From a virus: 44,620 nt of DNA. The translations under genes and the position numbers were made by a program. Positions 2,464-22,817 of the stretch are shown here, piece by piece. Each line of letters begins with the position of its first letter. Position 1 is the first letter of the stretch. The stretch lies in the IMG/VR virus record IMGVR_UViG_3300027739_000016, positions 1 through 44,620 of that record, one strand, 5' to 3'. Under the pieces are notes generated by a model that was not told where the DNA came from, made no database searches, and saw only the letters and a list, made by a program, of their open reading frames with translations.

Positions 2464-2652
2464 ATGGACAAGATACTCTTTGTCTCTCTCGGGACGATCG
2501 TCGGACTGATCTCGATCGCCCATGCAACCCGGGTGTTTGTCCAGTGGCTGGACTCGAAGGTTCCTGACACCTCGGCTCTGGTGACGATCCCGATCCTCCT
2601 CCTCGGGGCCTATGTCCTCATCGACTTCGCATACAGGGAGTTCACGACATGA
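2464..2652 (+). CDS. Small two-span membrane protein (62 aa)
   Basis: ATG at 2464 follows GAGGAAGG. Two hydrophobic segments (about residues 4-22 and 39-56) flank a short polar loop, with an acidic/aromatic C-terminus. It overlaps the next gene by four bases (ATGA). A perfect AAGGAGG at 2403-2409 sits too far upstream to serve this start. It may serve a TTG/ATC-initiated leader or be left from one. Confidence 0.7.
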   Translation: MDKILFVSLGTIVGLISIAHATRVFVQWLDSKVPDTSALVTIPILLLGAYVLIDFAYREFTT

Positions 2653-3131
2653 AGAAAGACGACATCCTCTTCGTATACGGGACGCTTCGTCTCGGTGAAT
2701 ACGCCGATCTATCACGAATGCACCCAGGGAAGGTGGAGTTCCTGTCTACCGACTGCATCAACGGGTCGCTCTACGCCCTCGGCCATTATCCGGGGGTCAA
2801 GTATCTCCGGACGTCCGAAGGCTTCAAGCCCTCGTTCCCCGTCGTCCACGGCGATCTCTTCCGGATCCTCGATCCGTCTGTCGTCGGCGCCATCGACATG
2901 TATGAAGGCCACCCGAATCTCTTCACGAGGATCGCGGCCAAGACGGCCCTCGGCTACGACGTCTTCGTCTACGACTATCCGCATGTCGTCAGGAACCAGC
3001 CGCTTATCGAGTCCGGCGACTGGACGACCTACATGATCCCGGAGACCCCGGCCAGGAAGGCCCCGGACTTGGCACCACTGGCCAAAGACGTCATCGAGGC
3101 CAAGACGTCGCAGACAGAAGGAGTCGGCTGA
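2649..3131 (+). CDS. AIG2/gamma-glutamylcyclotransferase-like enzyme (160 aa)
   Basis: GGCT-fold proteins convert gamma-glutamyl-amine linkages to 5-oxoproline plus free amine. The family signature FVYGTLR is at residues 8-14, the loop Y-A-L-G-H-Y-P-G follows, and Glu86 in DMYEGHP sits where the catalytic acid of GGCTs lies. The length is typical. It is the first enzyme of a run that includes two amidotransferases, two amidoligases and an ATP-grasp protein, so a role in trimming or cyclising a gamma-glutamyl or isopeptide product is likely. The actual substrate is unknown. A palindrome copy overlaps its last 20 codons. Confidence 0.88.
   Translation: MKKDDILFVYGTLRLGEYADLSRMHPGKVEFLSTDCINGSLYALGHYPGVKYLRTSEGFKPSFPVVHGDLFRILDPSVVGAIDMYEGHPNLFTRIAAKTALGYDVFVYDYPHVVRNQPLIESGDWTTYMIPETPARKAPDLAPLAKDVIEAKTSQTEGVG
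3069..3085. promoter_or_regulatory. Degenerate palindrome copy 5 (end of GGCT gene)
   Basis: TTGGCACCACTGGCCAA keeps TTGGC-N7-GCCAA with the same 17-bp span as the other copies, 46 bases before the start at 3131. It is read as L-A-P-L-A-K in the same register as the LASSAK copies. Confidence 0.4.
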
Positions 3132-3580
3132 TGCTGCAACTTGTGAATCACGGTGGAAAATGCTGCGGGATCAAGATTATCTACGGCTTCAAAGGGGGCC
3201 CTGAAGAACCGGAGCCTGCCGTCGCGGGGACGGCCTCTCCGTGCAACGAAGACGCATACGGGGCTGAAGTATCCTCTTCCCTCTCCTTCTACAACGAAGA
3301 GGCCCCCAAGGAGACGACACTCCGGCGACTCGATCGGTATCTCAAATACGTCAAGCGACGCCGGCCTTCTCACCTGATCGAGATCGTCCTCTCGTCGATG
3401 CGAGTCTGGAGGAATGTCGCGGGAGAAGACCCCTGTCTCATCCAACAAAACGACCTATGGGGCCCTCTTGTCGTAGAACGGGGGTTCTCCCTTGTGTCTA
3501 CTTTCACGAACAGTAACAGCAACAACACCTGTTACGTCTACCACAAGATCCTCGAGAAGGAAGGGAAGAAGGCGCCGTGA
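3131..3580 (+). CDS. Unknown protein of the amidoligase cluster (149 aa)
   Basis: Coupled to the GGCT gene by a TGATG overlap. The soluble product contains YGAEVSSSLSFYNE, a basic middle (RYLKYVKRRRPSH) and a C-terminal TFTNSNSNNTCYVYHK. The arrangement of beta-strand-like and helical parts loosely recalls an N-acyltransferase, but I cannot see an acetyl-CoA motif and do not assign one. Tight linkage to the peptide-modifying enzymes suggests a substrate or accessory role. Confidence 0.8.
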   Translation: MLQLVNHGGKCCGIKIIYGFKGGPEEPEPAVAGTASPCNEDAYGAEVSSSLSFYNEEAPKETTLRRLDRYLKYVKRRRPSHLIEIVLSSMRVWRNVAGEDPCLIQQNDLWGPLVVERGFSLVSTFTNSNSNNTCYVYHKILEKEGKKAP

Positions 3581-3623
3581 CAGCGGCATGAGTGCCAAGT
3601 AGTCAACAACTCAGGAGATTAAA

Positions 3624-4442
3624 ATGGAATTCCTTCGTTTCGGTTCGTCGATCCCCGGCTCGTATTGGGGCTGCTGTGCCGCCGACATCATCCAGAACTT
3701 CAAGGTCGCCCCCGACGCCAAGGCCTCGATCCAGCTCGTATCGGGTGACGGCGGCGGCCCCTTGATGCACAAGGACGACACGACCGAGCGTGCGTTCGTC
3801 GGCATGACCTACCGGGAGATCTTCGAGGAGCGTCTCCGTATCGGGACCTTCTCTTCCCGCGACATGCCGAACCACGCCTTCTTCGCGATCCTGACGGAGT
3901 CCCAGGTGTCTCACTCTCCCGGCAAGGACTGGTTGAAGATCTTGAAGGAGAACGGATTCGAATTCATCCGGACTGTCGACAACTCCGTCTACACCGGCGA
4001 GGCAGTCCCGCCTCCTGAAGGGTTCCAGGGTTCGCCGCACAAGAACCACGTCTTCGCCCTGTTTCGTAACATCGGCAACGGCGCCGTCAAGGACGCATTC
4101 ACCCCGCCGAAGGGTTGGACGGATCTTCCGGACGTGGTTCCTGAGGCGTGGCAGGAGCTTCCGGAAAAACGCCGTAAGGAACTGACGAAGGGGCAGAAGG
4201 CTGCCCAGCACGGCCTCTGGACGGCCCACGGGCCGACCAAGATCGTCAAGGAGTCTGAAGTCGTGGCGGCAGGCGCCCCTGTCATCCTCGCGGGTCTGCG
4301 CTCCGAAAACCCGCAGGAGCCCAAGGTTCTTCGGGACAACAGGATCGTGGTGAAGAAGGCCACGGAGAAGATGCCCGCCAAGAAGGCAGCGGTTCCTTCC
4401 TGCTTCGCGAAGCCCGTCGCGCCGGCTCCGGTCGCCGCCTGA
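3624..4442 (+). CDS. Unknown protein of the amidoligase cluster (272 aa)
   Basis: ATG at 3624 has AGGAG seven bases upstream. The N-terminus, MEFLRFGSSIPGSYWGCCA, carries paired Cys and looks conserved. The centre is acidic/aromatic, and the last 60 residues are a low-complexity Lys/Ala/Pro-rich tail ending APVAA. No catalytic motif recognised. It lies between the GGCT and amidotransferase genes, so it may be part of the same modification machine. Confidence 0.82.
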   Translation: MEFLRFGSSIPGSYWGCCAADIIQNFKVAPDAKASIQLVSGDGGGPLMHKDDTTERAFVGMTYREIFEERLRIGTFSSRDMPNHAFFAILTESQVSHSPGKDWLKILKENGFEFIRTVDNSVYTGEAVPPPEGFQGSPHKNHVFALFRNIGNGAVKDAFTPPKGWTDLPDVVPEAWQELPEKRRKELTKGQKAAQHGLWTAHGPTKIVKESEVVAAGAPVILAGLRSENPQEPKVLRDNRIVVKKATEKMPAKKAAVPSCFAKPVAPAPVAA

Positions 4443-4649
4443 TCTCCTCGATCCTTGATCTATCATCGTGCCCCGAGGCGCTATAAGAGGGGTTCGACTC
4501 CTCTCACCGTCTGGGTTCATGACCCAAAGGGAGTGTTTGGCAATGCAACGTCGTAAGGCTCGTTGTCCCAAGGCGCGTAAGGCATCCAGCCTCCACCGAC
4601 CCTCTCCTTGCGGAAAAGGAAGGGCCACCGGAGACGGGTGCGGCACGAA

Positions 4650-4694
4650 GGGGGGTGGTGAAGGTGGGAAACCGTTGAATCCAAACCACCCCCC
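4650..4694 (+). other. 10-bp GC-rich inverted repeat (RNA hairpin candidate)
   Basis: GGGGGGTGGT at 4650-4659 pairs perfectly with ACCACCCCCC at 4685-4694 across a 25-base loop. It lies 50 bases before gene 4744 and just before the palindrome at 4702. No T-tract follows, so it is not a simple terminator. A leader structure controlling the amidotransferase genes is possible. Confidence 0.45.
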
Positions 4695-4701
4695 ACTGAT
4701 T

Positions 4702-4718
4702 TTGGCAAGACTTGCCAG
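4702..4718. promoter_or_regulatory. Palindrome copy 6 before gene 4744
   Basis: TTGGCAAGACTTGCCAG contains the perfect 7-bp inverted repeat TGGCAAG-A-CTTGCCA and matches the TTGGCA-N5-TGCCA form of the early-region family. It is 26 bases upstream of the next start. Confidence 0.5.
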
Positions 4719-4743
4719 GAGGCGTAAAAGAGAGACAAAGATC

Positions 4744-4944
4744 ATGTCTATCGACAGCCGGATGTATACGGCACTTCGAGCATACTACCTCGGGTATGAC
4801 GTCGAGGCGTTTTCAACCCTCCGAGGCGTGATAAGGGACGTCGTGAAAGACGATGTTATTCAGGAGGCTCCCAGTGGGGAAGAGAAGCAGGAACCGACGG
4901 GCTCGGATGAAGAAGGAGAATGCTATGTCCACTACCTCATGTAG
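4744..4944 (+). CDS. Small acidic protein (66 aa)
   Basis: ATG at 4744 follows AGAGAGACAAAG. The N-terminal half is helical (MYTALRAYYLGYDVEAFSTL); the C-terminal half is acidic and Gln/Gly-rich. It overlaps the start of the class I amidotransferase by 20 bases, suggesting coupled translation. No family recognised. Confidence 0.72.
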   Translation: MSIDSRMYTALRAYYLGYDVEAFSTLRGVIRDVVKDDVIQEAPSGEEKQEPTGSDEEGECYVHYLM

Positions 4945-5908
4945 CGGGTCGAATCCCCTTGGCGCGGGAAAAGTAGCCTCTGGCGCGCTTGGCGCGGCCT
5001 CTGGCGCGGGTAACCCCCCGTCCGACAACGTCTCTGGCGCGCAAAAGAACCCTCTTGGCGCCCAAAATGAGGTCCTTGGCGCGATGACGAATATCGTCCC
5101 TTTGTCGGCACTCAACGTATCCGCCCGCGGCGGCAACAGAAGGAAGGTCATTTTGGTCCAAGACTCCCACCTCTCCTACCCCGAAATGTATCTCGAGGTC
5201 TACGTCCACGGCGACCAGTTCGAACAGCGTGCGTTTGCCGAGATGTTCGTCCGATCCAAATGCACCCGAGCGGACACCCCCGAAGAGGCGGACATCGTCG
5301 TCTTCACAGGAGGACACGACGTCAACCCGGCGCTCTACAACGAGGAGAAGCATTTCAGCACATCGTTCTCCGACGGGCGTGACACGTCAGACATCCTGAT
5401 GTATCAGCGTTGCGTCGAACAGGGTATCCCGATGTTTGGTGTCTGCCGCGGCGCACAGTTCCTTCATGTCATGAATGGCGGAAAGCTTTTCCAGGACGTT
5501 GACGCCCATAACGGCGCCCATGCGATCTACGACCGTAGGACGAAGAACGTGATCCAGAACGTGTCGTCGGTCCATCACCAAGCCTGTCGTCCGAACACCG
5601 AAGGCGGCATGGAGATCCTTGCGACGACGTCGAAGTCTCGTGTCAGGGCTTTGAACAACCTCGACGTCGAGACCGGCCAGAGCCAGGATATCGAGGCCTA
5701 CTTCTACCGCGACACCTGCTGCCTAGGTGTCCAGGGGCATCCGGAGTATCGAAACTACAACGCGTATACGAAGTGGTGTCTCGACCAGATCAACGATCTC
5801 ATCGTCTGCAACCCTGACACCGACTGGCAGGGAGGACGACGGCGTGTCAAGGACGACCTCGTCAAGCAACGTGCCGCCGGATGGGCGGCAAAGAAGGAGA
5901 AAGTCTGA
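4925..5908 (+). CDS. Class I glutamine amidotransferase / gamma-glutamyl hydrolase-like (peptidase C26, 327 aa)
   Basis: The catalytic triad is visible: Cys174 in GVCRGAQ, His272 and Glu274 in GHPEY, with FTGGHDVNPALY before it, as in PuuD-type gamma-glutamyl-GABA hydrolases. Such enzymes hydrolyse gamma-glutamyl amides. The ATG at 4925 follows AAGGAG; an in-frame ATG at 4907 lacks a site. Residues 10-56 are an odd extension made of repeated L-G-A and S-G-A units, encoded by repeated CTTGGCGC / TCTGGCGC DNA; the enzyme proper starts near residue 72. It is coupled to the class II amidotransferase, so the two may act on one glutamyl substrate. Fold confidence is high, substrate unknown. Confidence 0.9.
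   Translation: MSTTSCSGSNPLGAGKVASGALGAASGAGNPPSDNVSGAQKNPLGAQNEVLGAMTNIVPLSALNVSARGGNRRKVILVQDSHLSYPEMYLEVYVHGDQFEQRAFAEMFVRSKCTRADTPEEADIVVFTGGHDVNPALYNEEKHFSTSFSDGRDTSDILMYQRCVEQGIPMFGVCRGAQFLHVMNGGKLFQDVDAHNGAHAIYDRRTKNVIQNVSSVHHQACRPNTEGGMEILATTSKSRVRALNNLDVETGQSQDIEAYFYRDTCCLGVQGHPEYRNYNAYTKWCLDQINDLIVCNPDTDWQGGRRRVKDDLVKQRAAGWAAKKEKV
4960..5085 (+). repeat. Degenerate TTGGCGCG / TCTGGCGCG repeat array
   Basis: Seven copies of a (T/C)TGGCGC(G/C) unit at irregular spacing encode the L-G-A and S-G-A repeats at the N-terminus of the amidotransferase. Unit count and spacing vary, which suggests slippage or recombination growth. Its TTGGC core resembles the half-site of the early palindromes; this may be chance. 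Confidence 0.6.
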
Positions 5909-7044
5909 TGTGCGGTCACGTAGGTATCGCGGGGGATCTCGCACACAAGGACGAAGCGACGATGAAGCGTCTGCTGATGTTCGACTATTTCCGAGGACCT
6001 GATTCGACAGGGTTCGCGGGCATCAAGAAGGACGGGACTACGAAGATCTCCAAGGTGCCTTCACACCCGGTCGACCTCTTCGACATGAAAAGTTTCGGGA
6101 CTGCTTGCACCGGGTTTAACTCGACGGTGTTTCTCGGCCACAACCGCGCAGCAACCCGTGGCGTCATCAACACGTCTAACGCCCACCCTTACCAGTTTGG
6201 TGACATCATCGGCGCCCACAACGGGACGCTCGACATGTCGTCTTACCGGGCCCTCGAACAGGCGGTAGGCGAAGAGTATCCGACAGACAGCATGGCTATC
6301 TTCGCCGCGATCGACAAATTGGGGATCGAAGAAACGGCACCCCTTCTCCAAGGGGCCTGGTCTCTTGTCTGGTATGACGGGAAAGACAAGTCACTGAACT
6401 TCCTGCGGAACAAGGAGCGTCCGATGTGGTTCGGTTGGGGCGAAGGCTTCGACAGGCTCTACTGGGCTTCAGAGTGGCCGACGATCGACGCCTCGGTGAG
6501 GATGTCGCCTACCGACATCAAGATGTATACGGAGGACAAGACTGGTCATAAGTATTGGCCGACGGAACTCGACGCCTGGTATCAGTTCGATCTCGAGGAG
6601 CTTCGAAAGAAGAAAGAGGAGATGCCTGTCCCTATCGTCAAGACTCTGAAGGGAAAGGAGCCCAAGCCGGCGGTGACACATTCCTGTGGCGTTGACCCTT
6701 TTCAGCGCGCCACTGGGCAGACGGCTGGTTCGACGACGACTTCGACGACATCCCTTGGGGCCACACGAGCCACATCGGCTAACCCCCCCGGAAAGACGCA
6801 GAAGGAACCACTCACCATCGTCCTTGAGGGATCCCCCGAAAGCCCTCTTGCAGGATTCATCGACAAGGCGAAGTTCGACGTCTTGGCGAAGTATGGTTGT
6901 TCTTGGTGCGGGGCGACTGTCGAATACGGTGACGCGGGCGTGGCTATCTTCGAGAAGGACGAAGCAGTCCTTTGTTCTTCTTGCGTCGGCGGCGATGGTG
7001 AGTCTTCTCGTATCGTCTCGCCCCGTGTGGAGGTTCTTGTCTGA
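5908..7044 (+). CDS. Class II glutamine amidotransferase (Ntn hydrolase) with C-terminal zinc-finger-like tail (378 aa)
   Basis: Begins MCGHVGIAG, so Cys2 becomes the N-terminal nucleophile after Met removal. Also visible are GHNRAATRG (substrate Arg), GAHNGTLD (oxyanion Asn/Gly) and PTDSMA, all at class II (PurF/GlmS-type) positions. It would release ammonia from glutamine, or transfer a glutamyl group, for a partner ligase. After about residue 250 there is a Ser/Thr/Pro linker, then CSWC and CSSC pairs that could bind zinc. The start is fixed by the TGATG overlap with the class I enzyme. No synthetase domain is fused; the neighbouring amidoligases and ATP-grasp are likely partners. Confidence 0.92.
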   Translation: MCGHVGIAGDLAHKDEATMKRLLMFDYFRGPDSTGFAGIKKDGTTKISKVPSHPVDLFDMKSFGTACTGFNSTVFLGHNRAATRGVINTSNAHPYQFGDIIGAHNGTLDMSSYRALEQAVGEEYPTDSMAIFAAIDKLGIEETAPLLQGAWSLVWYDGKDKSLNFLRNKERPMWFGWGEGFDRLYWASEWPTIDASVRMSPTDIKMYTEDKTGHKYWPTELDAWYQFDLEELRKKKEEMPVPIVKTLKGKEPKPAVTHSCGVDPFQRATGQTAGSTTTSTTSLGATRATSANPPGKTQKEPLTIVLEGSPESPLAGFIDKAKFDVLAKYGCSWCGATVEYGDAGVAIFEKDEAVLCSSCVGGDGESSRIVSPRVEVLV

Positions 7045-8057
7045 TGCCTGTCACGAACAATCCCCCGCCAATCCCTTTCCCGGACTGGGAAGGACAACTG
7101 ACAACGCTGCTTTCGGAGGCAGACCTATCGCCCAACGGCACATGGAAGTCTGTGAAGATCCGTAGGAGCGACGAAAACCCTGAGAAAGACAAGGAGTATG
7201 ACATGTCTGTGAGCCCTATCCCGGCGATGGAAGGTTTCAAGTTCGGTTGCGACCCCGAGTTGTTCGTCAAGGACGACAAGGGTCGTTACGTCTCGGCGGA
7301 GGGTCTTTTGCCGGGGACGAAGGCCGCCCCCCACCCTGTCGAGTTCGGCGCCGTCCAGGTGGACGGGATGGCTGCGGAGTTTAACATCGAACCCGTCAGC
7401 ACCTTCAAGGAGTGGAACAGGAACATCGCCGCCGTCATGGGACAACTCGAGTCGATGCTCCCGAAGGGGCATACCCTCGACGCAGTCCCCGCCGTCCGTT
7501 TCGATCCCGAGGTCTTCGACGCCGCACCCGCGATTGCGAAGGAACTCGGTTGTTCGCCCGACTTTGACGCCTGGACGGGTGACGTTAATCCCCCGCCATC
7601 CTGCAACGACGAGTATCTCCGGACGGCTTCGGGCCACATCCACATCGGGTGGACTGATTCTGGTGATCTATCAGACCTCCAACATATCACCCACTGCCGC
7701 GATCTCGTCAAGCAGCTTGACTGGTATCTCGGGGGCTGGTCTGTCGCGATGGATCCCGACATGACTCGTCGCCGTCTCTACGGAAAGGCCGGTGCCTGCC
7801 GCTACAAGACCTATGGGGTTGAATACCGAGTCCTCTCGAACTTCTGGATAACGACCCGAGATCGCCGTTGCCTTGTTTGGAATCGGATGCAGCAGGCGAT
7901 CCACGACATGCGGTCGGCTTACCTGCCGGATCGGGCGTCCTCTCGTCACAGGGACGCACTCCTTCGCCTGATTAACGAAGGGGTTTCAAGCAAGGACTTC
8001 TCGACAAACTTCCGTTTCCCGGTTGCGACCCTCGACAGTTCCTACCGCCGGGTCTGA
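7044..8057 (+). CDS. phiEco32-type COOH-NH2 ligase (type 2 amidoligase, 337 aa)
   Basis: Glutamine-synthetase-fold amidoligase that uses ATP to join a carboxyl to an amine. Family features: GCDPELFV near residues 68-75, VQVDGMAAEFNIEP near 105-118 and SGHIHIGW near 197-204, supplying metal and ATP ligands. The start overlaps the upstream stop (TGATG); the in-frame ATG at 7203 would remove a non-conserved 53-residue extension and is a possible alternative. Phages of the phiEco32 kind carry this family beside ATP-grasp and amidotransferase genes, as here. The joined substrates are unknown. Confidence 0.9.
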   Translation: MPVTNNPPPIPFPDWEGQLTTLLSEADLSPNGTWKSVKIRRSDENPEKDKEYDMSVSPIPAMEGFKFGCDPELFVKDDKGRYVSAEGLLPGTKAAPHPVEFGAVQVDGMAAEFNIEPVSTFKEWNRNIAAVMGQLESMLPKGHTLDAVPAVRFDPEVFDAAPAIAKELGCSPDFDAWTGDVNPPPSCNDEYLRTASGHIHIGWTDSGDLSDLQHITHCRDLVKQLDWYLGGWSVAMDPDMTRRRLYGKAGACRYKTYGVEYRVLSNFWITTRDRRCLVWNRMQQAIHDMRSAYLPDRASSRHRDALLRLINEGVSSKDFSTNFRFPVATLDSSYRRV

Positions 8058-8077
8058 ACACTAACGACAGGTGAGTC

Positions 8078-8842
8078 ATGAATCACAAGAACTTTTACGA
8101 AACGACGGCGGAGGCGAATATGCGCCTTCGAGGGACTGTCGTCTGCTACGACGGCAAACCGTATCACGTCCACTTGGTGTCTGATCATAAGGGTGACGGA
8201 ATATTCCGCATCTACCTAGAAGAGACGGGCAAGGAATACGAAGAACGTGTCGCCAACGTCGTCACGAGCCCTCCTTGTCCTCTTTATACGATGAACAGCG
8301 ACTCCCCGGAGACAGGCAAGGCTCTGGACGTATGGATGGAGACGAATCCTGGGTTCGGCGTGATCCGGAAGATGATGAACTCACCGTTGTTCAACAAATT
8401 CCGGCCATTTCCGCTCGGGATGGTGAACTTTGACGGCCTTGTTTCTTATGCCGAGCGACACCCTTTGCGGAAGACAGAGCAGGGGTTGATTATGCAGGGG
8501 ATCGTCGACAACCCTGTGTCGGTCCTTAAGAGCAGCAGATCTCCCATGCGGCATGACCCTGGTTCGCAGTATTTCAGGGACACGATCATCGGGGCGTATC
8601 CGACGGCGAAGGAGTGTCTCAAGGAGTTACTAGACCCTCTCGTGATGAACGACGGGGTAGCGTTCCACCGTGAGTTCGCCTTTATCAGGGGCCCTTTGCG
8701 GTCAATCTATCTGGCATATCGGACGGAAGTAGTCGGGGTCTTGCCGCACAACGATTTCACCGTCTGCCAACTGGGGCCAGACCACGGGCATTTGCAAGAG
8801 GTCGTCAAAGAGTTGCGACTCTTTTCCGCAGTATACAAGTAG
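8078..8842 (+). CDS. Unknown protein between the two amidoligases (254 aa)
   Basis: ATG at 8078 follows CAGGTGAG. A beta-rich N-terminal part (RGTVVCYDGKPYHVHLV) is followed by a longer domain containing CPLYTMNSDSPETGK and a C-terminal LPHNDFTVCQLGPDHGH. I know no catalytic motif in it. Its fixed place between two amidoligase genes suggests a dedicated partner of the pathway. Confidence 0.83.
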   Translation: MNHKNFYETTAEANMRLRGTVVCYDGKPYHVHLVSDHKGDGIFRIYLEETGKEYEERVANVVTSPPCPLYTMNSDSPETGKALDVWMETNPGFGVIRKMMNSPLFNKFRPFPLGMVNFDGLVSYAERHPLRKTEQGLIMQGIVDNPVSVLKSSRSPMRHDPGSQYFRDTIIGAYPTAKECLKELLDPLVMNDGVAFHREFAFIRGPLRSIYLAYRTEVVGVLPHNDFTVCQLGPDHGHLQEVVKELRLFSAVYK

Positions 8843-8863
8843 TAGGACAAGACAGGAGTCAAT

Positions 8864-9928
8864 ATGTCTGAAGTCTTTATCAAGAAACCGGCAACCCCGG
8901 CTCTCGGTTTCAACATCATGTCTGTCCTCCGTAAGAAGGCTACGAAGGGACGCGTGGGTCTAGAGATCGAGGTCGAAGGCAACAAGTTTCCGAAGTCCAA
9001 CGAATACATCGCCCCTTACTGGGAATACCACAAGGACGGCTCTCTTCGTGGGCAGGATAACGCAGAATACGTTCTCCGTCGTCCCATCGAATTCTCCGAA
9101 GTCCCTGACGCGGTGAACTTCCTTTGGGGGCAGCTCGGCGCATACGGCTCCGTCCTGTCGGACAGTAACAGAACTTCCGTCCACGTCCACCTTAACTGCC
9201 AGACGTTCCACTTCAACCGTCTCGCAGCTTTTTCGGCCCTCTACTTCTGCTTCGAGGAGGTTCTCACCGGATTCTGCGGAGACCACCGGGTGGGAAATCT
9301 CTTCTGTCTCCGGGCAAAGGACGCTCCGGCTATCGTGTCTTCGATCAAGAAATTCATCAAGACCGAGGGGCGATTCGAACTCCGTGACGGCCTCCATTAC
9401 GCCGGGTTTAACTGCAACGCCCTCGTCAAGTTCGGTTCGATCGAGATCAGGACTCTTCGAGGGGTATTGAAGCCGGAAGAGGTGATTCAGTGGGTCGCGA
9501 TCCTGCAGCGTCTGTACGATCTATCGGAAACTTACGCAGACCCTCGAGATCTGTGTGATGGTTTCTCCGGGGCAGGCCCGATGGCCTTTTTCGAGAAAGT
9601 CTTCGGCGAACTGACGCCTTTGATCCGCGCCGGTTGCGGTATGTCTGAGTCGGAAATCACTGAGGCTTTGTACGAGGGGATCCGTTTCGCCCAGGACATC
9701 TGCTACTGTCGAGACTGGGCCGCATTCAAGGCCGTCGAACTCAAGCCAGATCCCTTCGGGCGTGACGCGAGATCTATCATGAAACAGCTTCTGCAACAGG
9801 CAGGCCAGCCAGACGCCCCTACCACCGGAATCGGGAGCATCCTGTTGCCGTCTATGCATGGCTCTCTCCCGAGTAACCTTTTCAGCGAAGAACCTGAAGA
9901 AGAGGAATGGTTCGAAGAGCCTGAATAA
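8864..9928 (+). CDS. Amidoligase family enzyme (Amidoligase_2 type, 354 aa)
   Basis: Second glutamine-synthetase-like ligase. GLEIEVEG at residues 32-39 gives the metal-binding Glu residues, KDGSLRGQDNAEYVL near 57-71 is the typical W/DGSL...E block, and SVHVHLNC near 106-113 supplies the His ligands. The C-terminus is very acidic (EEPEEEEWFEEPE). ATG at 8864 follows CAGGAG. Having two different amidoligases in one cluster suggests two successive amide or isopeptide bonds. Substrates unknown. Confidence 0.88.
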   Translation: MSEVFIKKPATPALGFNIMSVLRKKATKGRVGLEIEVEGNKFPKSNEYIAPYWEYHKDGSLRGQDNAEYVLRRPIEFSEVPDAVNFLWGQLGAYGSVLSDSNRTSVHVHLNCQTFHFNRLAAFSALYFCFEEVLTGFCGDHRVGNLFCLRAKDAPAIVSSIKKFIKTEGRFELRDGLHYAGFNCNALVKFGSIEIRTLRGVLKPEEVIQWVAILQRLYDLSETYADPRDLCDGFSGAGPMAFFEKVFGELTPLIRAGCGMSESEITEALYEGIRFAQDICYCRDWAAFKAVELKPDPFGRDARSIMKQLLQQAGQPDAPTTGIGSILLPSMHGSLPSNLFSEEPEEEEWFEEPE

Positions 9929-9963
9929 GATGCAGACACCGAAGAAGAAGAAGGGTCCTTCTA

Positions 9964-10758
9964 ATGGCTTACAAAGTGATTCCGTACAAGCAAGGCTCTC
10001 AATCAGCCAAGGCACTGGCGACGGCCCTTGGGGGTCGTGTTCTTCGCCTTATCGGCTCGGGTTACAAGGGAAAGGCGGGTGACCGCGTCATCAACTGGGG
10101 GAGCACAGACACGACGCAGGGGCACGTCTACCCCGCACGGCTCTACAACGTCCCTGTCTTGATAAGGAACGCAAGCAACAAGCTGCTGTTCTTCGAGACC
10201 GTGAAACAAGTCGCACCGACTGCAATCCCCGATTTTTGGACGAAGAAAGAAGACATCCCCGATGAAGCGTTTCCTGTCGTATGCCGAACCATCCTTTCTG
10301 GTCACTCTGGTGCCGGCATCGTCGTGGCTGGTAATCGTGACGGGCTCGTTGATGCTCCTCTTTACGTAAAATACATTAAGAAGAAGGACGAATACCGTGT
10401 GCATCTTGGAAAAGAAGACGACGCTTTCGGAATCATCTCCGTCCAGCGAAAAGCCCGTCGCCCGGGTCACGAGAACCCCAATTGGCAAGTACGGAATCAT
10501 GCTAACGGATTTATCTATGTCCGAGGTTCTGTCAATCCTCCGTCATGTGTCTTTGACGTATCGAAGGCAGCATTCGCGGCGACGGGCCTCGACTTTGGTG
10601 CCGTCGATGTGATCTACAACGAACACGAGGGTCGGGCCTATGCCTTGGAGATCAACACTGCGCCGGGTCTTGAGGGGCAGACTGTATCGGACTACGCCCG
10701 CTTCTTTGACCCCGGTGTCTCCGCCACAACCCCTCCACAGGTGGCGGAAGTTGTTTGA
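9964..10758 (+). CDS. ATP-grasp ligase (264 aa)
   Basis: Carboxylate-amine ligase fold. The C-terminal part carries VDVIYNEHEGRAYALEINTAP with Asp215, Glu229 and Asn231 as the usual Mg-ATP ligands, and SGHSGAGIVV near 113-122 resembles the flexible ATP loop. The length is short but normal for phage members of the family. ATG at 9964 follows AAGGGTCC, 35 bases after the amidoligase stop. It completes a set of three ATP-dependent amide-forming enzymes. Codon use is relaxed over about 10260-10610, where two +1 ORFs overlap it. Confidence 0.88.
   Translation: MAYKVIPYKQGSQSAKALATALGGRVLRLIGSGYKGKAGDRVINWGSTDTTQGHVYPARLYNVPVLIRNASNKLLFFETVKQVAPTAIPDFWTKKEDIPDEAFPVVCRTILSGHSGAGIVVAGNRDGLVDAPLYVKYIKKKDEYRVHLGKEDDAFGIISVQRKARRPGHENPNWQVRNHANGFIYVRGSVNPPSCVFDVSKAAFAATGLDFGAVDVIYNEHEGRAYALEINTAPGLEGQTVSDYARFFDPGVSATTPPQVAEVV
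10262..10369 (+). CDS. Candidate nested +1 ORF: 35-aa hydrophobic peptide inside the ATP-grasp gene
   Basis: Starts MKRFLSYAEPS and continues with an almost uninterrupted hydrophobic stretch (residues 12-35) ending LMLLFT. Over this span the ATP-grasp frame uses many T-ending codons, unlike its flanks. No strong Shine-Dalgarno precedes it. It could be a small membrane peptide or a chance result of relaxed codon use. Confidence 0.4.
   Translation: MKRFLSYAEPSFLVTLVPASSWLVIVTGSLMLLFT
10397..10612 (+). CDS. Candidate nested +1 ORF inside the ATP-grasp gene (71 aa)
   Basis: GTG at 10397 with AAGGAC upstream. It reads MCILEKKTTL and later MLTDLSMSEVLSILRHVSL, a composition closer to a real helical protein than to the Ser/Arg-rich shadow frames elsewhere. 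The ATP-grasp codons here include many GGA, CGA, AAA and GTA. Weaker case than the nested ORFs in the nuclease and reductase genes. Confidence 0.35.
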   Translation: MCILEKKTTLSESSPSSEKPVARVTRTPIGKYGIMLTDLSMSEVLSILRHVSLTYRRQHSRRRASTLVPSM

Positions 10759-10838: not shown

Positions 10839-10867
10839 TTGACACAGGAGGTTTTATGTGGTACAAT
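10839..10867 (+). promoter_or_regulatory. Sigma-70 promoter-like sequence
   Basis: TTGACA at 10839-10844 and TACAAT at 10862-10867 are separated by exactly 17 bases. The same stretch holds the ribosome site (AGGAGG) and start codon of gene 10856, so it would drive the genes from 10952 on, up to the terminator at 11150-11181. Confidence 0.45.
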
Positions 10868-10951: not shown

Positions 10952-11167
10952 ATGCGCTGCCATATCTGTGACGCCAACCTTTCGAAGCCGGACTATAACG
11001 CCGAGATACAGGGCTACGAGCCTTGTGACGCCTGTCTGGCGGTGATCCAAGACACCCTCGACGGGTATCTAGACCAGGCCTATGCCCCGGAAGACGCCTT
11101 CGGGGGGTCTGAAATCCCCCAATTCCTCCCGATTCCCGACACCTTGTCGGACGAAGACCTGTGGTGA
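10952..11167 (+). CDS. Small zinc-ribbon-like protein (71 aa)
   Basis: Four cysteines in two pairs (CHIC at residues 3-6, CDAC at 25-28) suggest a zinc knuckle. The rest is acidic, ending DTLSDEDLW. Last gene of the early/amidoligase block: its stop codon lies inside the terminator at 11150-11181. Function unknown; short zinc proteins of phages often bind nucleic acids or host proteins. Confidence 0.8.
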   Translation: MRCHICDANLSKPDYNAEIQGYEPCDACLAVIQDTLDGYLDQAYAPEDAFGGSEIPQFLPIPDTLSDEDLW

Positions 11168-11201: not shown

Positions 11202-11230
11202 TTGACAAGACCCGAAAACCTTGGTATAAT
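11202..11230 (+). promoter_or_regulatory. Consensus sigma-70 promoter for the replication block
   Basis: TTGACA, a 17-base spacer, TATAAT: a perfect match. The upstream CGATTTTAC also precedes the -35 of the promoter at 44130. It drives the primase-helicase gene and probably the block beyond it; expected start near 11237. Confidence 0.93.
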
Positions 11231-16423: not shown

Positions 16424-16499
16424 GGGTCTCAAGCATTAAGGGGCGATGCACCGGTCTCCAAAACCGGGTAGCGAGGTTCGAGTCCTCGGAGATCTGCCA
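16424..16499 (+). tRNA. tRNA-Trp (anticodon CCA)
   Basis: A full cloverleaf can be drawn: acceptor GGGTCTC/GAGATCT (two G-U pairs), D-stem GCAT/ATGC, anticodon stem CCGGT/ACCGG with loop CTCCAAA, T-stem CGAGG/CCTCG with loop TTCGAGT, discriminator G and an encoded CCA at 16497-16499. The anticodon at 16458-16460 reads UGG. It lies right after the SSB gene and is co-transcribed. Confidence 0.92.
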
Positions 16500-18210: not shown

Positions 18211-18338
18211 TAGCCCAGCGAAGACGCGGATACTGTGAGGCGATGGATAAGATAGCCAATTTCTTGAACGCACTCGACACAGAGGGTTTAACCTCTCTGG
18301 AAGTAAAGAAGCTGGTCTACAAGGAAACATCGAAATGA
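18189..18338 (+). CDS. Small helical protein upstream of thyX (49 aa)
   Basis: ATG at 18189 with GAGG upstream. It reads MDGQARLIAQRRRGYCEAMD and then LTSLEVKKLVYKETSK. Overlaps both neighbours and ends in an ATGA with thyX, so it is part of the coupled run. Unknown function. Confidence 0.6.
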   Translation: MDGQARLIAQRRRGYCEAMDKIANFLNALDTEGLTSLEVKKLVYKETSK

Positions 18339-19000
18339 AAGCAGAACTGATTGACCACATGGGGACGGATCTGACGGTCGTCAACGCAGCCCGCGTCTCT
18401 TTCGCAAAGGAAAGCTGGTGGGCGAATGAAGAAAATTGGTTGGAGTACGACGCAGAGCTACGGCTAAGGGAGTCTGACGCGAAGCTTATCTCCTACTTGG
18501 CTGATCACGGGCACTGGACGCCTTTCGGGCACCCCCAGGTGATGCTACGTATCACGGCCCCGATCCCGATCAGGACCCAGTGCTTCAAGCACAAGCAGGG
18601 TTTCGTAGAGAACGAGGTGTCCCGTCGGTATGTAGACGACAAGCCTGAGTTCTTCTGGCCGGTCCTCCGTCAGAGGGCTGAAGACAAGAAGCAGGGAAGT
18701 AAGGACGAGTTCCCTGCACGGCTAGAGGCTTGTGAGAACGCACTCTACATGGCGTATGAAGTAGGTCGCCAGTGCTACGACTTCCTTCTGAAGGAGGGCG
18801 TCGCCCCGGAACAGGCCCGTATGGCCCTGCCGCAGGGGATGCTGACACAGTGGTACTGGACGGGGAGTCTGGCTGCTTACGCACGTTTCTACCGCCTGCG
18901 GCAACACGAAGACGCCCAGAAAGAGATCCAAGATCTTGCACAGATGATCGGAGACGTCATCGAACCCCTTTTCCCGGTCTCCTGGAAGGCGCTTACATGA
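18335..19000 (+). CDS. thyX: Flavin-dependent thymidylate synthase ThyX (221 aa)
   Basis: Makes dTMP from dUMP with methylenetetrahydrofolate, FAD and NADPH. The signature RHRxxSxNExSxRY is present as KHKQGFVENEVSRRY: the first Arg and the other Arg are Lys and the first Ser is Phe, variants that keep charge. VNAARVSF and QARMALPQGMLTQWYWTGSL match other conserved blocks. Normal length. It works with the diphosphohydrolase-like protein and the reductase further along to supply dNTPs. Confidence 0.92.
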   Translation: MKAELIDHMGTDLTVVNAARVSFAKESWWANEENWLEYDAELRLRESDAKLISYLADHGHWTPFGHPQVMLRITAPIPIRTQCFKHKQGFVENEVSRRYVDDKPEFFWPVLRQRAEDKKQGSKDEFPARLEACENALYMAYEVGRQCYDFLLKEGVAPEQARMALPQGMLTQWYWTGSLAAYARFYRLRQHEDAQKEIQDLAQMIGDVIEPLFPVSWKALT

Positions 19001-19710
19001 ACGAACCCAAGGTACTCCTTCTCGACATCGAATGGCGCCCTACCAAGGCTTACGTCTGGCAGCCGTGGCAGGAGAACATCACACCAGAGAAGATCATCGA
19101 GCACGGAGGCTGCCTCTGCGTCGGCTTCAAGTTCTTCGGACAGAAGCAGGTGACACTCGTCTCCGACTGGGAACAGGGTCACGAGGAGATGATCAAGATC
19201 GTCCACGGGGTTATGTCAGAGGCAGACGCGGTTGTGACGTATAACGGCGACAAGTACGATCTCCGAAAGCTCGAGGGTGAATTCCTTCTCGCAGGCCTTC
19301 CGCCGCCGCCTTCTGTCACCTCTATCGACTGCCTCAAGGCCGTCAAGAAGTTTGGTTTCTTCATGAACCGCCTCGCGTTTGTAGGTCCGTTCCTCTCTCT
19401 GGGAGGCAAGATCGAACACGAAGGCTTCTCCCTCTGGAAGAAGGTCGACAACGGCGACCCTAAGGCACAGGCCAAGATGGCTAAGTACTGTAAGCAGGAC
19501 GTCAACCTGCTTGAGAAGCTGTACGTAAAGATCCGTCCTTACATCCGAAACCACCCGAATATGGGACGTATTGGCGCCAATACCTGCGGGGCTTGCGGGT
19601 CTCGTCATCTGCAGTCTCGGGGGGTCCGGCGGACGAAGACCTTCCAGATACAGCGACTTCAGTGCCAATCTTGTGGGTCTTGGCAAGACGGAAAGCGGAC
19701 AAAGGCGTGA
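18997..19710 (+). CDS. RNase H-fold 3'-5' exonuclease with C-terminal zinc ribbon (237 aa)
   Basis: DEDD-type exonuclease: LLLDIEW (D, E), VVTYNGDKYDLRKLEGE (second block) and YCKQDVNLLEKLY (third block) give the metal-binding acids. After residue 190, CGACGS and CQSCGS form a two-pair zinc ribbon for DNA or RNA contact. It is distinct from the exonuclease domain of the polymerase. Possible roles are DNA end processing or RNA turnover. Starts in an ATGA overlap with thyX. Confidence 0.85.
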   Translation: MNEPKVLLLDIEWRPTKAYVWQPWQENITPEKIIEHGGCLCVGFKFFGQKQVTLVSDWEQGHEEMIKIVHGVMSEADAVVTYNGDKYDLRKLEGEFLLAGLPPPPSVTSIDCLKAVKKFGFFMNRLAFVGPFLSLGGKIEHEGFSLWKKVDNGDPKAQAKMAKYCKQDVNLLEKLYVKIRPYIRNHPNMGRIGANTCGACGSRHLQSRGVRRTKTFQIQRLQCQSCGSWQDGKRTKA

Positions 19711-19868
19711 CATACGACTCTCTTTACCAAAGACTGTATGACGAAATCATCGAGGATCTTCCCGACGCAGACCCGGCTTCTGTCGAAGACACGGTAGCCT
19801 ACCTCGTCGAGATGGGGCTCCTTGATTACGATCTTCTGAAAGAATACTACCAGGAGTATGACGCATGA
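19707..19868 (+). CDS. Small acidic helical protein (53 aa, GTG start)
   Basis: GTG at 19707 overlaps the exonuclease stop, after AAAGG. It reads MTYDSLYQRLYDEIIEDLPD and ends LLDYDLLKEYYQEYDA. It resembles its two downstream neighbours in size, acidity and the LLD(Y/V)DLL-type motif, so the three may be related by duplication. Confidence 0.65.
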   Translation: MTYDSLYQRLYDEIIEDLPDADPASVEDTVAYLVEMGLLDYDLLKEYYQEYDA

Positions 19869-20071
19869 CTGACAAGTACGAAGAACTGGCTATCGACCTC
19901 GTCGCATTCACTTCTGTCGGGATCGAACAGGCGCGAGAGGTTGTCTCCTTCCTCCGTGAAGAGGCCCTTCTCGACGTCGAAGCCCTCGACGACTACCTTG
20001 AAGACTTCTACGACCAAGACGGTTTCGGAGACCCCGACGAGCCTGATTCCGAAGAGGAGCAGGAGGACTGA
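19865..20071 (+). CDS. Small acidic helical protein (68 aa)
   Basis: Starts in an ATGA overlap. It contains EEALLDVEALDDYLEDFYD, like the end of the protein before it, and finishes with a run of Asp/Glu. Strong negative charge suggests binding to a basic partner or DNA mimicry, unproven. Ends in a TGATG overlap. Confidence 0.68.
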   Translation: MTDKYEELAIDLVAFTSVGIEQAREVVSFLREEALLDVEALDDYLEDFYDQDGFGDPDEPDSEEEQED

Positions 20072-20235
20072 TGGACGAAGAGACCCGTAATCGAATATTT
20101 GATTACTTCTCCGGATCCGAGCTCGTTGAGTATCTTCGGCTAGACACGTTCGACGTCATCGACGCTTTTGAAGACGAGATCATGGAAGTAATATTCGACC
20201 TAGAAGAATTGATGGGAGTCAAAAATGGAAAGTGA
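20071..20235 (+). CDS. Small acidic helical protein (54 aa)
   Basis: ATG at 20071 with AGGAGG upstream. It reads MDEETRNRIFDYFSGSELVE and continues with DVIDAFEDEIMEVIFDLEEL. Third member of the acidic run. It overlaps the diphosphohydrolase-like gene by 11 bases. Confidence 0.65.
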   Translation: MDEETRNRIFDYFSGSELVEYLRLDTFDVIDAFEDEIMEVIFDLEELMGVKNGK

Positions 20236-20686
20236 CCCTAATGGCAAGACGGCAAACGAACCCGGAAGCAAGCTCGACGCAGGAAAGGTTTGTGGGTTTA
20301 CCGGCCTCGTTGGATATTTCCCTCGGGCTCTTAGAAGCGTTGCTGAGGTCTCGGATTTCGGGGCTCGAAAGTATACTCGCGGGGGTTGGCGTACTGTCCC
20401 AAACGGAATCGATCGATACACTGACGCGATGGTACGACACCTCCTCAACGAAGGAGAGGGAAATGTTCTGGATGCTGACAGTGGACTCGCTGAGGCTGCG
20501 CACACGGCTTGGAACGCCCTTGCACGACTCGAACTGATGATCGATGCAGACCAGGCTATGCTTGAATTCTTCGAGTCACAAGAAGGTCAGGATCTCTTCG
20601 ATTACATCAAACAAGACTACTACCTCAACCCACCTTGTCTGCTCCCGGCAGACGCCCTTTCCTTCGAACCCAAGGACACCGAATGA
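20225..20686 (+). CDS. dATP/dGTP diphosphohydrolase-like protein (DUF5664 family, 153 aa)
   Basis: Family pattern is present: KLDAGK near the N-terminus, EVSDFGARKYTRGGW, RYTDAMVRHLL, then LDADSGLAEAAHTAWNAL with the metal-binding Glu/Asp/His residues. Related all-alpha pyrophosphatases remove pyrophosphate from dNTPs; some phage members reshape dATP/dGTP pools. Placed between ThyX and the reductase, so nucleotide-pool control fits. Codon use is loose through most of the gene, and a +1 ORF runs inside it. Confidence 0.75.
   Translation: MESDPNGKTANEPGSKLDAGKVCGFTGLVGYFPRALRSVAEVSDFGARKYTRGGWRTVPNGIDRYTDAMVRHLLNEGEGNVLDADSGLAEAAHTAWNALARLELMIDADQAMLEFFESQEGQDLFDYIKQDYYLNPPCLLPADALSFEPKDTE
20241..20537 (+). 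CDS. Nested +1 ORF inside the diphosphohydrolase-like gene (98 aa)
   Basis: ATG at 20241 with GGAAAG eight bases upstream. Protein-like: LPASLDISLGLLEALLRSRI, then GLESILAGVGVL and KEREMFWMLTVDSLRLRTRL, mostly amphipathic helix. Because the main frame has loose codon use along almost its whole length, the bias argument is weaker here than in the nuclease and reductase. Confidence 0.45.
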   Translation: MARRQTNPEASSTQERFVGLPASLDISLGLLEALLRSRISGLESILAGVGVLSQTESIDTLTRWYDTSSTKEREMFWMLTVDSLRLRTRLGTPLHDSN

Positions 20687-20919
20687 TCAAAGAGATTCCA
20701 GCGACTCCGGACGAAACGCTGCTGTATACCGATCCGGACGGGGTCCTGTACGAGGCGAAGATCTTCTCCGACTACGCCCTCGTCCGCCCCGCCGACTACG
20801 CGAGGTATTCTGACATAGAACAGGTCAAGATCTCCGACTTCCGTGACAGGTATAAGCCGGCCTTGGTGTCTTTCGACGCCGTCAAGCAGGCGTTGGGTAA
20901 GAAGGGATCTGTCAATTGA
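20683..20919 (+). CDS. Small protein before the reductase (78 aa)
   Basis: Starts in an ATGA overlap. It reads MIKEIPATPDETLLYTDPDG and later ALVRPADYARY; compact alpha/beta composition, no Cys, no membrane span. It overlaps the TTG start of the reductase gene by four bases. Possibly an accessory of nucleotide metabolism by position only. Confidence 0.72.
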   Translation: MIKEIPATPDETLLYTDPDGVLYEAKIFSDYALVRPADYARYSDIEQVKISDFRDRYKPALVSFDAVKQALGKKGSVN

Positions 20920-22817
20920 CTTCAAACTTTCCGACGTATTACGAAGAGTTCATCTATAAGTCTCGTTATTCACGATGGCTTGACGAAGAAGGGCGGCGAG
21001 AGAACTGGGACGAGACGGTAACACGTCTCGTTTCTTTCTACCTCCAACAGGTCTTGCCTAGTAAAGACGGGACGGAAGAGTACGAAGAGCTTTTCGCAGA
21101 ACTCTTTAACGCCATCTACTCCTTCGAGGTGATGCCGAGTATGCGGTCGATGATGACAGCAGGCGAGGCTCTGTCCCGGTGTAACGTAGCCGGGTATAAT
21201 TGTGCGTATCTCCCCGTAGACTCCCCCAGGAGCTTCGACGAGGCGATGTATATCCTTATGTGCGGAACCGGTGTCGGTTTCTCTGTGGAGAATAAGTATG
21301 TCGAACAACTTCCAAGGATCTCCGAAGAGTTTGCCTCGAGTCCTAGCGTCATACGGGTTGGCGATAGTAAAGAAGGATGGGCAAAAGCCTTCCGAGAACT
21401 CGTCTCCCTACTCATTTCTGGTCAAGTTCCCGGATGGGACGTCTCAGGGGTACGACCTTCCGGCGCACGACTTCGGACCTTTGGTGGACGCGCTTCGGGA
21501 CCCGAACCTCTGGTCGACCTTTTTGAATTCGCTGTACGTGTCTTTCAAGGCGCAGCAGGCCGCCGACTGACGTCCCTCGAGTGCCACGACCTTATGTGCA
21601 AGGTAGGAGACGTGGTTGTCGTAGGCGGCGTCCGCCGTTCCGCGATGATCTCCCTCTTCGACGTCACTGACGACCGGATGGCCACGAGTAAGTCGGGCGC
21701 CTGGTGGGAGAAGGACGGTATCCGTCGCCTGGCTAACAATTCCGCCGTATACGAACACCGCCGCCCGGACATGGGCTTCTTCATGAAGAAGTGGAAAGAA
21801 CTACATGACTCTCACTCAGGCGAACCAGGAATCTTCTCGCGATACGCTTGTCAGAGAATTGCAGGCCGAAACGGTCGCCGTGACGCAAGTCATGAGTTCG
21901 GAACTAATCCGTGCTCTGAAATCATCCTCCGACCCTACCAGTTCTGCAACCTTACTGAGATCGTTGTACGACCTGAAGACAGCGACGAAAGCCTATCTCG
22001 AAAAGTTAGAATCGCTACAATCCTGGGGACGATCCAATCTACCTTCACGGACTTCAAGTACCTGAGGAAGATTTGGAAAAAGAACTGTGAAGAAGAACGT
22101 CTACTCGGGGTATCCTTCACAGGGATCCTTGACAACCCGAAAGTACTTGATGCTGGATTTCTTGGAGCACTGCGACAACTGGCTGTCGACACGAACGCAG
22201 AGTATTCTGCCCGATTCGGGATCACTCCTTCTGCTGCGATTACTTGTGTTAAACCCTCTGGAACTGTCAGTCAGTTGGTTGATTCTGCTTCTGGCCTTCA
22301 TCCTCGCCACAGTCGCTATTATCTTCGTACTGTTCGTGCGGACAACAAAGACCCTCTCACGGCTTTTCTCAAAGACTCTGGGGTGTATCACGAGGCAGAC
22401 ATCACGGCTCCTGCGACGACTACCGTCTTTTACTTCCCTCGTAAATCGCCTGAAGAGGCCGTGACGCGGAACAATCTGACGGCTATCGACCAGCTTGAAA
22501 TCTGGAAGACGCTGCAAGAGGCGTGGTGTGAGCACAAGCCGTCTGCAACCGTATACGTCAGAGACGACGAATGGATGAAGGTCGGCTCCTGGGTCTACGA
22601 GAACTTCGACTTCCTGTCTGGGGTCTCCTTCCTCCCACACGACGGGGGGAGCTACAAGCAGGCTCCTTACCAGGAGATCGACGAGAAGACGTATGAAAAA
22701 TGGGTCCTTAAAGAACCCAAGGATGTCGACTACAACGACCTCAGGTTCTATGAATCAGAGGACATGACGACAGGGTCTCAGGAACTCGCCTGCACAGGCG
22801 GTAGTTGCGAGATCTGA
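20916..22817 (+). CDS. nrdJ: Class II adenosylcobalamin-dependent ribonucleoside-triphosphate reductase, monomeric type (633 aa)
   Basis: Reduces NTPs to dNTPs using B12. By analogy with the Lactobacillus enzyme, Cys333 in NPCSEI is the radical Cys, Glu335 the acid, and Cys344 (FCNL) with Cys89 or Cys96 in CNVAGYNCAY the redox pair; Cys626/Cys631 in ACTGGSC form the C-terminal relay. TTG start overlaps the previous gene. Oxygen-independent, so it serves any host with cobalamin. Codon use alternates: C/G-ending before 21298, in 21571-21804 and after 22464, but loose in between, exactly where three +1 ORFs lie. Confidence 0.95.
   Translation: MTSNFPTYYEEFIYKSRYSRWLDEEGRRENWDETVTRLVSFYLQQVLPSKDGTEEYEELFAELFNAIYSFEVMPSMRSMMTAGEALSRCNVAGYNCAYLPVDSPRSFDEAMYILMCGTGVGFSVENKYVEQLPRISEEFASSPSVIRVGDSKEGWAKAFRELVSLLISGQVPGWDVSGVRPSGARLRTFGGRASGPEPLVDLFEFAVRVFQGAAGRRLTSLECHDLMCKVGDVVVVGGVRRSAMISLFDVTDDRMATSKSGAWWEKDGIRRLANNSAVYEHRRPDMGFFMKKWKELHDSHSGEPGIFSRYACQRIAGRNGRRDASHEFGTNPCSEIILRPYQFCNLTEIVVRPEDSDESLSRKVRIATILGTIQSTFTDFKYLRKIWKKNCEEERLLGVSFTGILDNPKVLDAGFLGALRQLAVDTNAEYSARFGITPSAAITCVKPSGTVSQLVDSASGLHPRHSRYYLRTVRADNKDPLTAFLKDSGVYHEADITAPATTTVFYFPRKSPEEAVTRNNLTAIDQLEIWKTLQEAWCEHKPSATVYVRDDEWMKVGSWVYENFDFLSGVSFLPHDGGSYKQAPYQEIDEKTYEKWVLKEPKDVDYNDLRFYESEDMTTGSQELACTGGSCEI
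21298..21570 (+). CDS. Nested +1 ORF A inside nrdJ (90 aa)
   Basis: ATG at 21298 has GGAG seven bases upstream. It contains SYGLAIVKKDGQKP and then FLVKFPDGTSQGYDLPAHDF and LRDPNLWSTFLNSLYVSFKA, ordinary globular composition. Its own third codon positions are largely C/G, while the reductase over the same stretch turns to CGA, GGA, GTA and CTA. Function unknown. Confidence 0.6.
   Translation: MSNNFQGSPKSLPRVLASYGLAIVKKDGQKPSENSSPYSFLVKFPDGTSQGYDLPAHDFGPLVDALRDPNLWSTFLNSLYVSFKAQQAAD
21805..22065 (+). CDS. Nested +1 ORF B inside nrdJ (86 aa)
   Basis: ATG at 21805, GGAAAG six bases upstream. Long amphipathic helical character: SRDTLVRELQAETVAVTQVM, SSELIRALK, LLRSLYDLKTATKAYLEKLE. It overlaps the reductase active-site region (NPCSEI), so both frames are constrained. 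The reductase codon switch begins almost exactly at this start. Confidence 0.58.
   Translation: MTLTQANQESSRDTLVRELQAETVAVTQVMSSELIRALKSSSDPTSSATLLRSLYDLKTATKAYLEKLESLQSWGRSNLPSRTSST
22087..22464 (+). CDS. Nested +1 ORF C inside nrdJ: membrane protein (125 aa)
   Basis: GTG at 22087 (GGAAAAAG upstream); ATG at 22150 is an alternative. A strong hydrophobic span lies near residues 62-84 (WLILLLAFILATVAIIFVLF) with a basic C-terminal region (RQTSRLLRRL...NRLKRP) after it. A second hydrophobic patch is at 46-56. The reductase sequence it overlaps is well conserved and uses many T-ending codons here. Could be a membrane effector; unassigned. Confidence 0.55.
   Translation: MKKNVYSGYPSQGSLTTRKYLMLDFLEHCDNWLSTRTQSILPDSGSLLLLRLLVLNPLELSVSWLILLLAFILATVAIIFVLFVRTTKTLSRLFSKTLGCITRQTSRLLRRLPSFTSLVNRLKRP

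Follow-up and report, generated by a model that had tools for sequence, protein, structure and literature searches.

A conserved phage amidoligase module with a constant component, protein C, in a 44,620-base virus record

What does a virus make with nine consecutive genes in which three different ligases stand beside two glutamine amidotransferase (GATase)-fold proteins and a gamma-glutamyl cyclotransferase (GGCT)? The question is raised by the IMG/VR record IMGVR_UViG_3300027739_000016, whose whole 44,620 bases are the window analyzed here and which holds these genes, all co-directional and uninterrupted, at 2649-10758 on the plus strand. A first account made from the letters alone (the sequence-only reading) had described an amide-bond-forming cluster with two amidotransferases, two amidoligases, an ATP-grasp ligase and a GGCT, and every one of these genes was found, in one direction. 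It had also likened the cluster to those of phiEco32-like phages for which no product has been demonstrated. This agrees with our comparison, as the cluster matches a predicted phage module, and no paper with a demonstrated product or target was found in the literature on that module. Iyer et al. reportedly predicted the module for phiEco32 in 2009. The module type is thus already known and has repeatedly been published as a predicted peptidoglycan-modification cassette, proposed to act as a barrier to superinfection or as a preparation for lysis (PMC5498523, PMC11945000, PMC10580990, PMC11318856, PMC11253131). Our survey of relatives adds a constant component, protein C, a clade-specific tandem pair, A and B, and the exchangeability of the ATP-grasp ligase. 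The genes, in order and with the shorthand used below, are as follows.

2649..3131, plus strand: GGCT/GGACT-type gamma-glutamyl cyclotransferase (GGCT); PF06094, E 1.7e-15; phrog_2520
3131..3580, plus strand: unknown A, an HGGxCCGIKxI protein and tandem paralogue of B; conserved in relatives
3624..4442, plus strand: unknown B; conserved in relatives
4853..5908 (start perhaps 4925), plus strand: class I GATase-fold protein of the Peptidase C26 branch (GAT1); PF07722, E 1.7e-23; phrog_7218, E 7.5e-37
5908..7044, plus strand: class II, N-terminal nucleophile (Ntn) GATase (GAT2); PF13522, E 9e-16; phrog_4736, E 3e-56
7044..8057, plus strand: phiEco32-type COOH-NH2 ligase, type 2 (COOH); phrog_3815, E 1e-77
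8078..8842, plus strand: unknown C; phrog_11055 (an unnamed family), E 3e-18
8864..9928, plus strand: Amidoligase_2, glutamine-synthetase (GS)-like (AMID); phrog_7469, E 2e-60; Pfam E 0.003, below cut-off
9964..10758, plus strand: RimK-like ATP-grasp ligase (GRASP); phrog_2599, E 2e-67; match to the RimK structure profile 5zct, E 5e-7

The five-gene core and protein C

About 80 loci were gathered by alignment of the COOH-NH2 ligase and more by B and A, and all were annotated with family hidden Markov models. In the 86 distinct loci, every gene found lies on one strand. Most loci share the order GAT1-GAT2-COOH-C-AMID-GRASP, with GGCT before, after or inside this block or absent, and the few loci that start in mid-block do so where the contig ends. 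The block precedes the primase in Pseudomonas phage TC6/PA11, Citrobacter phage CVT22, phage T5S1 and Salinivibrio phage CW02. A cluster found in this order in 86 distinct loci, in each case on a single strand, is not a product of chance.

Active sites were compared in alignments of 45-87 relatives per family. The presumed catalytic residues are intact in the window and nearly all are invariant across the homologues, so that the loss of catalytic residues in relatives, which the sequence-only reading had raised as a danger to its claim, was not seen. Among the ligases, the COOH-NH2 ligase retains D107, E112, N114, H198, H200, R242, E260 and R262, each in 84 of 84 sequences. The residues E34, E36, H107, H109, R142, E194 and R196 of Amidoligase_2 are invariant among relatives, as are K73, R108, E143, R145, K163, D215, E229 and N231 of the ATP-grasp ligase. 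The view that unrelated genes came together by chance or are in decay, with no joint function, could draw on the mobility or loss of ATP-grasp and GGCT and on the shortening of GAT2 in phage TL. We rejected it, with next to no credence left, because of these near-invariant active sites and the order conserved in 86 loci.

The distance matrices of GAT1, GAT2, COOH, C and AMID correlate with one another at 0.74-0.89, and with those of ATP-grasp or primase at 0.34-0.53 (also given as 0.41-0.53). The contrast is clear within the larger clade alone (0.68-0.85 within the block versus 0.43-0.54) and smaller within the window-like clade alone (0.76-0.87 versus 0.49-0.76), where C and AMID are the highest pair. 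These five genes therefore form the core of the module, a more tightly co-varying block.

Protein C is a constant component of this core. A homologue is present in 85 of the 86 loci, and the exception (L055) begins inside the amidoligase. C occupies the corresponding position in a Vibrio phage, in Slicky01, in a Rhizobium phage, in the phiEco32-like phage ECBP2 and, weakly, in the LUZ24-like phage TL; with an expanded profile, each of 14 of 14 extra records had exactly one matching open reading frame (ORF), with E = 0.001-0.002 for TL. Where COOH has been relocated behind AMID (L052 and L054), C still adjoins the amidoligase, and C-AMID gives the top correlation of the 21 distance-matrix pairs (r = 0.89). 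C is most likely a partner of the amidoligase. An AlphaFold2 model of C was confident (predicted local distance difference test, pLDDT, 94.6; predicted template-modelling score, pTM, 0.88), and a search of the PDB with this model gave no fold match (best E 0.18), so that its fold is without a PDB counterpart. C was not found singled out in the literature on the module, a comparison outside which Iyer 2009 and Hardies 2013 stand.

The sequence-only reading had suggested that the three unassigned genes at 3131, 3624 and 8078 might be substrate carriers. All three are real genes, each conserved in relatives, and their linkage to the cluster recurs in other genomes, that of C in 85 of 86 loci and in additional phage groups and that of A and B within the window-like clade. 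The carrier role found no support for C. The protein is about 180-260 residues long and confidently folded, its conserved residues (G114, R127, R131, G136 and P175) are internal, the alignment contains neither a conserved tail nor an attachment residue, and C co-varies with the enzymes. C as a substrate carrier or precursor is thus not supported.

A and B are tandem paralogues, as a comparison of their clean profiles shows (hhalign probability 96.9%, E 2e-10). They carry an invariant Cys-Cys or Cys, and Cys18, Phe112 and Asn120 (B numbering) are invariant in the joint alignment. An orthologue of A in another locus (L003) is 45% identical. The B motif was found in 11 loci, all within the window-like clade; cluster genes accompany it in all except L096, whose sequence ends at B. 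A tblastn search with B gave no match among 50,697 phage records. The model of B (pLDDT 89) had one clear relative among predicted viral structures and none in the PDB at E<=1e-3; the PDB matches to GNAT enzymes were partial, with low template-modelling scores, and we do not claim B as such an enzyme. In many other loci an unrelated family, D, lies upstream of GAT1. A and B occupy the slot of D, and B and D were never found in one locus. Homology of B to D is not supported despite the common slot (hhalign probability 1%).

Exchangeable and cleaving parts

The ATP-grasp ligase is an exchangeable part of the module. Its gene shifts position among loci, is duplicated in several and shows the least co-variation among the module genes. 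Two copies per module were seen in L063, L072, L073 and L074, one between GAT1 and GAT2 and one after the amidoligase.

This behavior bears on the proposal that the module modifies proteins after translation, with glutamates or other amino acids added to protein tails by ATP-grasp, isopeptide bonds formed by the GS-like ligases and editing by GGCT or the hydrolase, on host or phage proteins. The nearest relative of the ATP-grasp ligase is indeed RimK, the glutamate ligase of S6, and from family knowledge the two GS-like ligases could work in the manner of Pup ligase. However, the enzyme on which this proposal leans is the most loosely linked and exchangeable one, none of the cluster genes was recognised as one for a small tagging protein, and C is an ordinary folded protein from which a conserved tail is absent. 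We regard protein modification as improbable.

Enzymes of the GGCT family remove gamma-glutamyl groups, and the catalytic Glu86 of GGCT is kept in 44 of 44 relatives. GAT1 scores above the cut-off of PF07722, and its triad of Cys198, His296 and Glu298 is present in 74 of 74 relatives. The nearest NCBIfam model is NF045546 (gamma-glutamyl-CDP-amidate hydrolase; E 5e-10), with PuuD also near; the solved structures nearest to it are Lin1909, a probable glutamine amidotransferase, and PuuD. By sequence comparison GAT1 appears closest to the gamma-glutamyl hydrolases, an assignment to the nearest branch only, as its scores lie far under the curated equivalog cut-offs of these two models (39.8 versus 250 and 29.9 versus 266 bits). 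For GAT2, the start was moved from 5881 to 5908, where ATG is followed by the codon for the catalytic Cys and overlaps the stop codon of GAT1 (TGATG). All 73 relatives whose sequence covers this position have the N-terminal Cys after the initiator Met, and the catalytic Cys, Arg, Asn, Gly and Asp show little or no variation. A C-terminal Zn-ribbon-like CxxC...CxxC motif is also conserved (79/79 for the first pair; 75/80 and 74/80 for the second). In phage TL (L099, 8571-9410), GAT2 is disrupted before the Zn-ribbon part, and the glutaminase domain and N-terminal Cys remain.

Of the 55 records, 48 carry GAT1 and 34 carry GGCT. GGCT occurs in all seven records that lack GAT1, and none of the 55 lacks both, which we interpret as an indication that cleavage of gamma-glutamyl groups is required.

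Distribution and genomic surroundings

In one collection, 317 phage records carried the COOH-NH2 ligase. This ligase had no relative among 72,556 plasmids and matched only 8 contigs in 84,980 species genomes, all from metagenome-assembled genomes (MAGs) and all with the phage-type module. As they carry this module, most with primase, these contigs are probably phage. The module is essentially confined to phages, and an origin as host-derived auxiliary genes was rejected on these counts. A 6-kb contig (L112), binned as a Candidatus Altiarchaeales archaeon, contains D, GAT1, GAT2, COOH, C, AMID and the start of GRASP.

For Phage-ZRK32, nitrogen metabolism was proposed as the role, and an effect on growth with NH4+ or NO3- was described (PMC10945688). 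A host-acquired auxiliary set for nitrogen or glutamine metabolism would fit this growth effect and the two glutaminase-type enzymes. However, the searches above gave no host counterpart, and nitrogen assimilation needs neither three different ligases nor C. Such a role is very improbable for the window.

The virion genes of the window are P22-type (P22_portal, E 2e-151; P22_CoatProtein, E 4e-25), as the sequence-only reading had noted, but this background is nothing special. In 46 module-bearing records, the P22 portal scored above cut-off in 16 and had no match at all in 28, so that the module does not depend on a particular virion type. Endolysins in 43 module-bearing records were Phage_lysozyme (PF00959) in 24, M15 in 3 and GH19 in 1, counts for which there is no baseline for comparison. 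The window itself encodes a GH19-like endolysin (23302-23994, minus strand), a type that is rare among its module-bearing relatives, in which Phage_lysozyme (PF00959) is commoner. Elsewhere the window contains a single tRNA-Trp (CCA) gene (16424-16499, plus strand) and, at 18335-22817, ThyX, a dATP/dGTP diphosphohydrolase-like N domain and a class II (B12-type) ribonucleotide reductase, which is also a feature of the marine cobaviruses.

Within the module, one-base overlaps (TGATG) at GGCT/A, GAT1/GAT2 and GAT2/COOH suggest translational coupling. The start of GAT1 is uncertain, as the ribosome-binding site is better at 4925 than at 4853. B and GAT1 are separated by a gap of 410 bases (4443-4852) that holds a tRNA T-arm-like stem-loop and a GC-rich repeat-like stretch; Rfam gave no family above threshold in it. 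Downstream of the ATP-grasp gene lie a small ORF of 71 residues (10952-11167) and then the primase-helicase at 11328. Graspetide-type peptide biosynthesis would call for a conserved short precursor next to the ATP-grasp gene, and the ORF between that gene and the primase may be considered in this light. Two near-perfect sigma-70 promoters on the plus strand, each with an extended -10 TG, fall between the module and the primase-helicase (10839-10867, score 11/12; 11202-11230, score 12/12), so the replication genes probably have host-type promoters of their own. PADLOC gave no defence-system match.

Proposed chemistry and known systems

Our leading reading, which we hold tentatively, is that the window carries a complete member of the phage amidoligase module, expressed early and acting in the cytosol, that performs gamma-glutamyl-type amide chemistry with the stem of a peptidoglycan precursor as the most likely acceptor. 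We infer the amide chemistry from knowledge of the families, and likewise infer the gamma-glutamyl logic, the acceptor and the benefit; the peptidoglycan target is a published prediction (PMC5498523, PMC11945000). In this scheme, the class II GATase would cleave glutamine, and the COOH-NH2 ligase and Amidoligase_2, the latter with C as its dedicated partner subunit, would activate a carboxylate with ATP for amide or isopeptide bonds. The RimK-like ATP-grasp ligase may then add a further amino acid, probably glutamate, and the PuuD-type class I protein, GGCT or both could remove gamma-glutamyl groups, so that these serve as a handle that is added and later trimmed. Pairings of this kind are known, as the polyamine and ergothioneine pathways couple GS-like ligases with gamma-glutamyl hydrolases and capsule phosphoramidate synthesis uses a C26 hydrolase; it is on these that the add-then-trim proposal is built. 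The precursor stem would become non-standard, and competing phages, or the wall-acting enzymes of the phage itself, would meet a changed wall. In PSA-HP1, expression of the predicted peptidoglycan genes starts directly after infection (PMC7082346), which favors takeover or exclusion over lysis preparation.

Several observations weigh against this reading. First, the sequence itself gives no pointer to peptidoglycan, as no Mur-ligase fold, strongly hydrophobic segment or wall-binding domain was found in the cluster sequences. Second, a single infection cycle leaves little time for replacement of the wall. Third, M15-type endopeptidases as a class cut the stem peptide, and a modified stem might block the one present in 3 of the 43 records typed above, a count without a baseline. 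Fourth, the contig binned as archaeal is either misbinned phage DNA or from an archaeal virus, and the latter would weaken a peptidoglycan acceptor. Fifth, the pattern of GAT1 or GGCT reaches p ~0.03 (hypergeometric, relatedness uncorrected), with seven related GAT1-less records, two of them short fragments.

A different product would be a small metabolite or peptide able to diffuse, such as a gamma-glutamyl conjugate or a non-ribosomal oligopeptide, whose target is the physiology or the defence signalling of the host instead of the wall. All of the enzymes look cytosolic, with no strongly hydrophobic segment, families with gamma-glutamyl small-molecule precedents dominate, and immediate expression fits a role in takeover or counter-defence. 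On the other hand, the cluster is without a transporter, carrier protein or obvious precursor, and no report of a metabolite was found in the literature on the module. We consider a diffusible product unlikely, though a serious competitor to modification of the precursor stem. A bolder, combined statement, that C founds a new-fold family of obligate partner or specificity subunits for GS-like amidoligases and that the module yields a phage-only amide of the gamma-glutamyl type, made by no cell, strikes us as doubtful as a whole.

Hundreds of phages carry this module without a product found in the literature. The recognition of C, the exchangeability of ATP-grasp and the constant cleaving enzyme together define a minimal gene set, and the constancy of a gamma-glutamyl-removing enzyme type leads to a testable chemical prediction. 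Of these additions C is the most valuable, along with the five-gene core as a unit for expression.

Compared to known systems, the cluster shares features with four. First, MurT-GatD peptidoglycan amidation also combines a class I GATase fold with an ATP-dependent ligase, but no Mur-ligase homologue was found in the window cluster, and GAT1 is nearest to the gamma-glutamyl hydrolase branch. Second, PuuA-PuuD, gamma-glutamyl-CDP-amidate hydrolase and EgtA-EgtC likewise join a ligase to a C26 or class II gamma-glutamyl hydrolase, whereas the window matches fall far below equivalog cut-offs and the oxidases, kinases and methyltransferases of the PuuA-PuuD and EgtA-EgtC pathways were not recognised in the cluster. 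Third, the early region of the Zobellviridae (PA11/TC6, CVT22 and CW02) has the same module order and a related primase-helicase. The window departs from this family in its virion genes, with a P22-type portal and coat instead, while TC6, CVT22, T5S1 and CW02 had no P22_portal match. Fourth and closest is the peptidoglycan modification module of phiEco32, phiRIO-1, PSA-HP1, PA11, LUZ24 and CW02. As in that module, the window run holds Amidoligase_2, ATP-grasp and the class II GATase together with the COOH-NH2 ligase, along with GGCT and/or a class I protein, in a single gene run just before the primase-helicase. The core order of the window is that of PA11/TC6, and the window differs from the published module in having A and B instead of D, GGCT in front and a P22-type virion.

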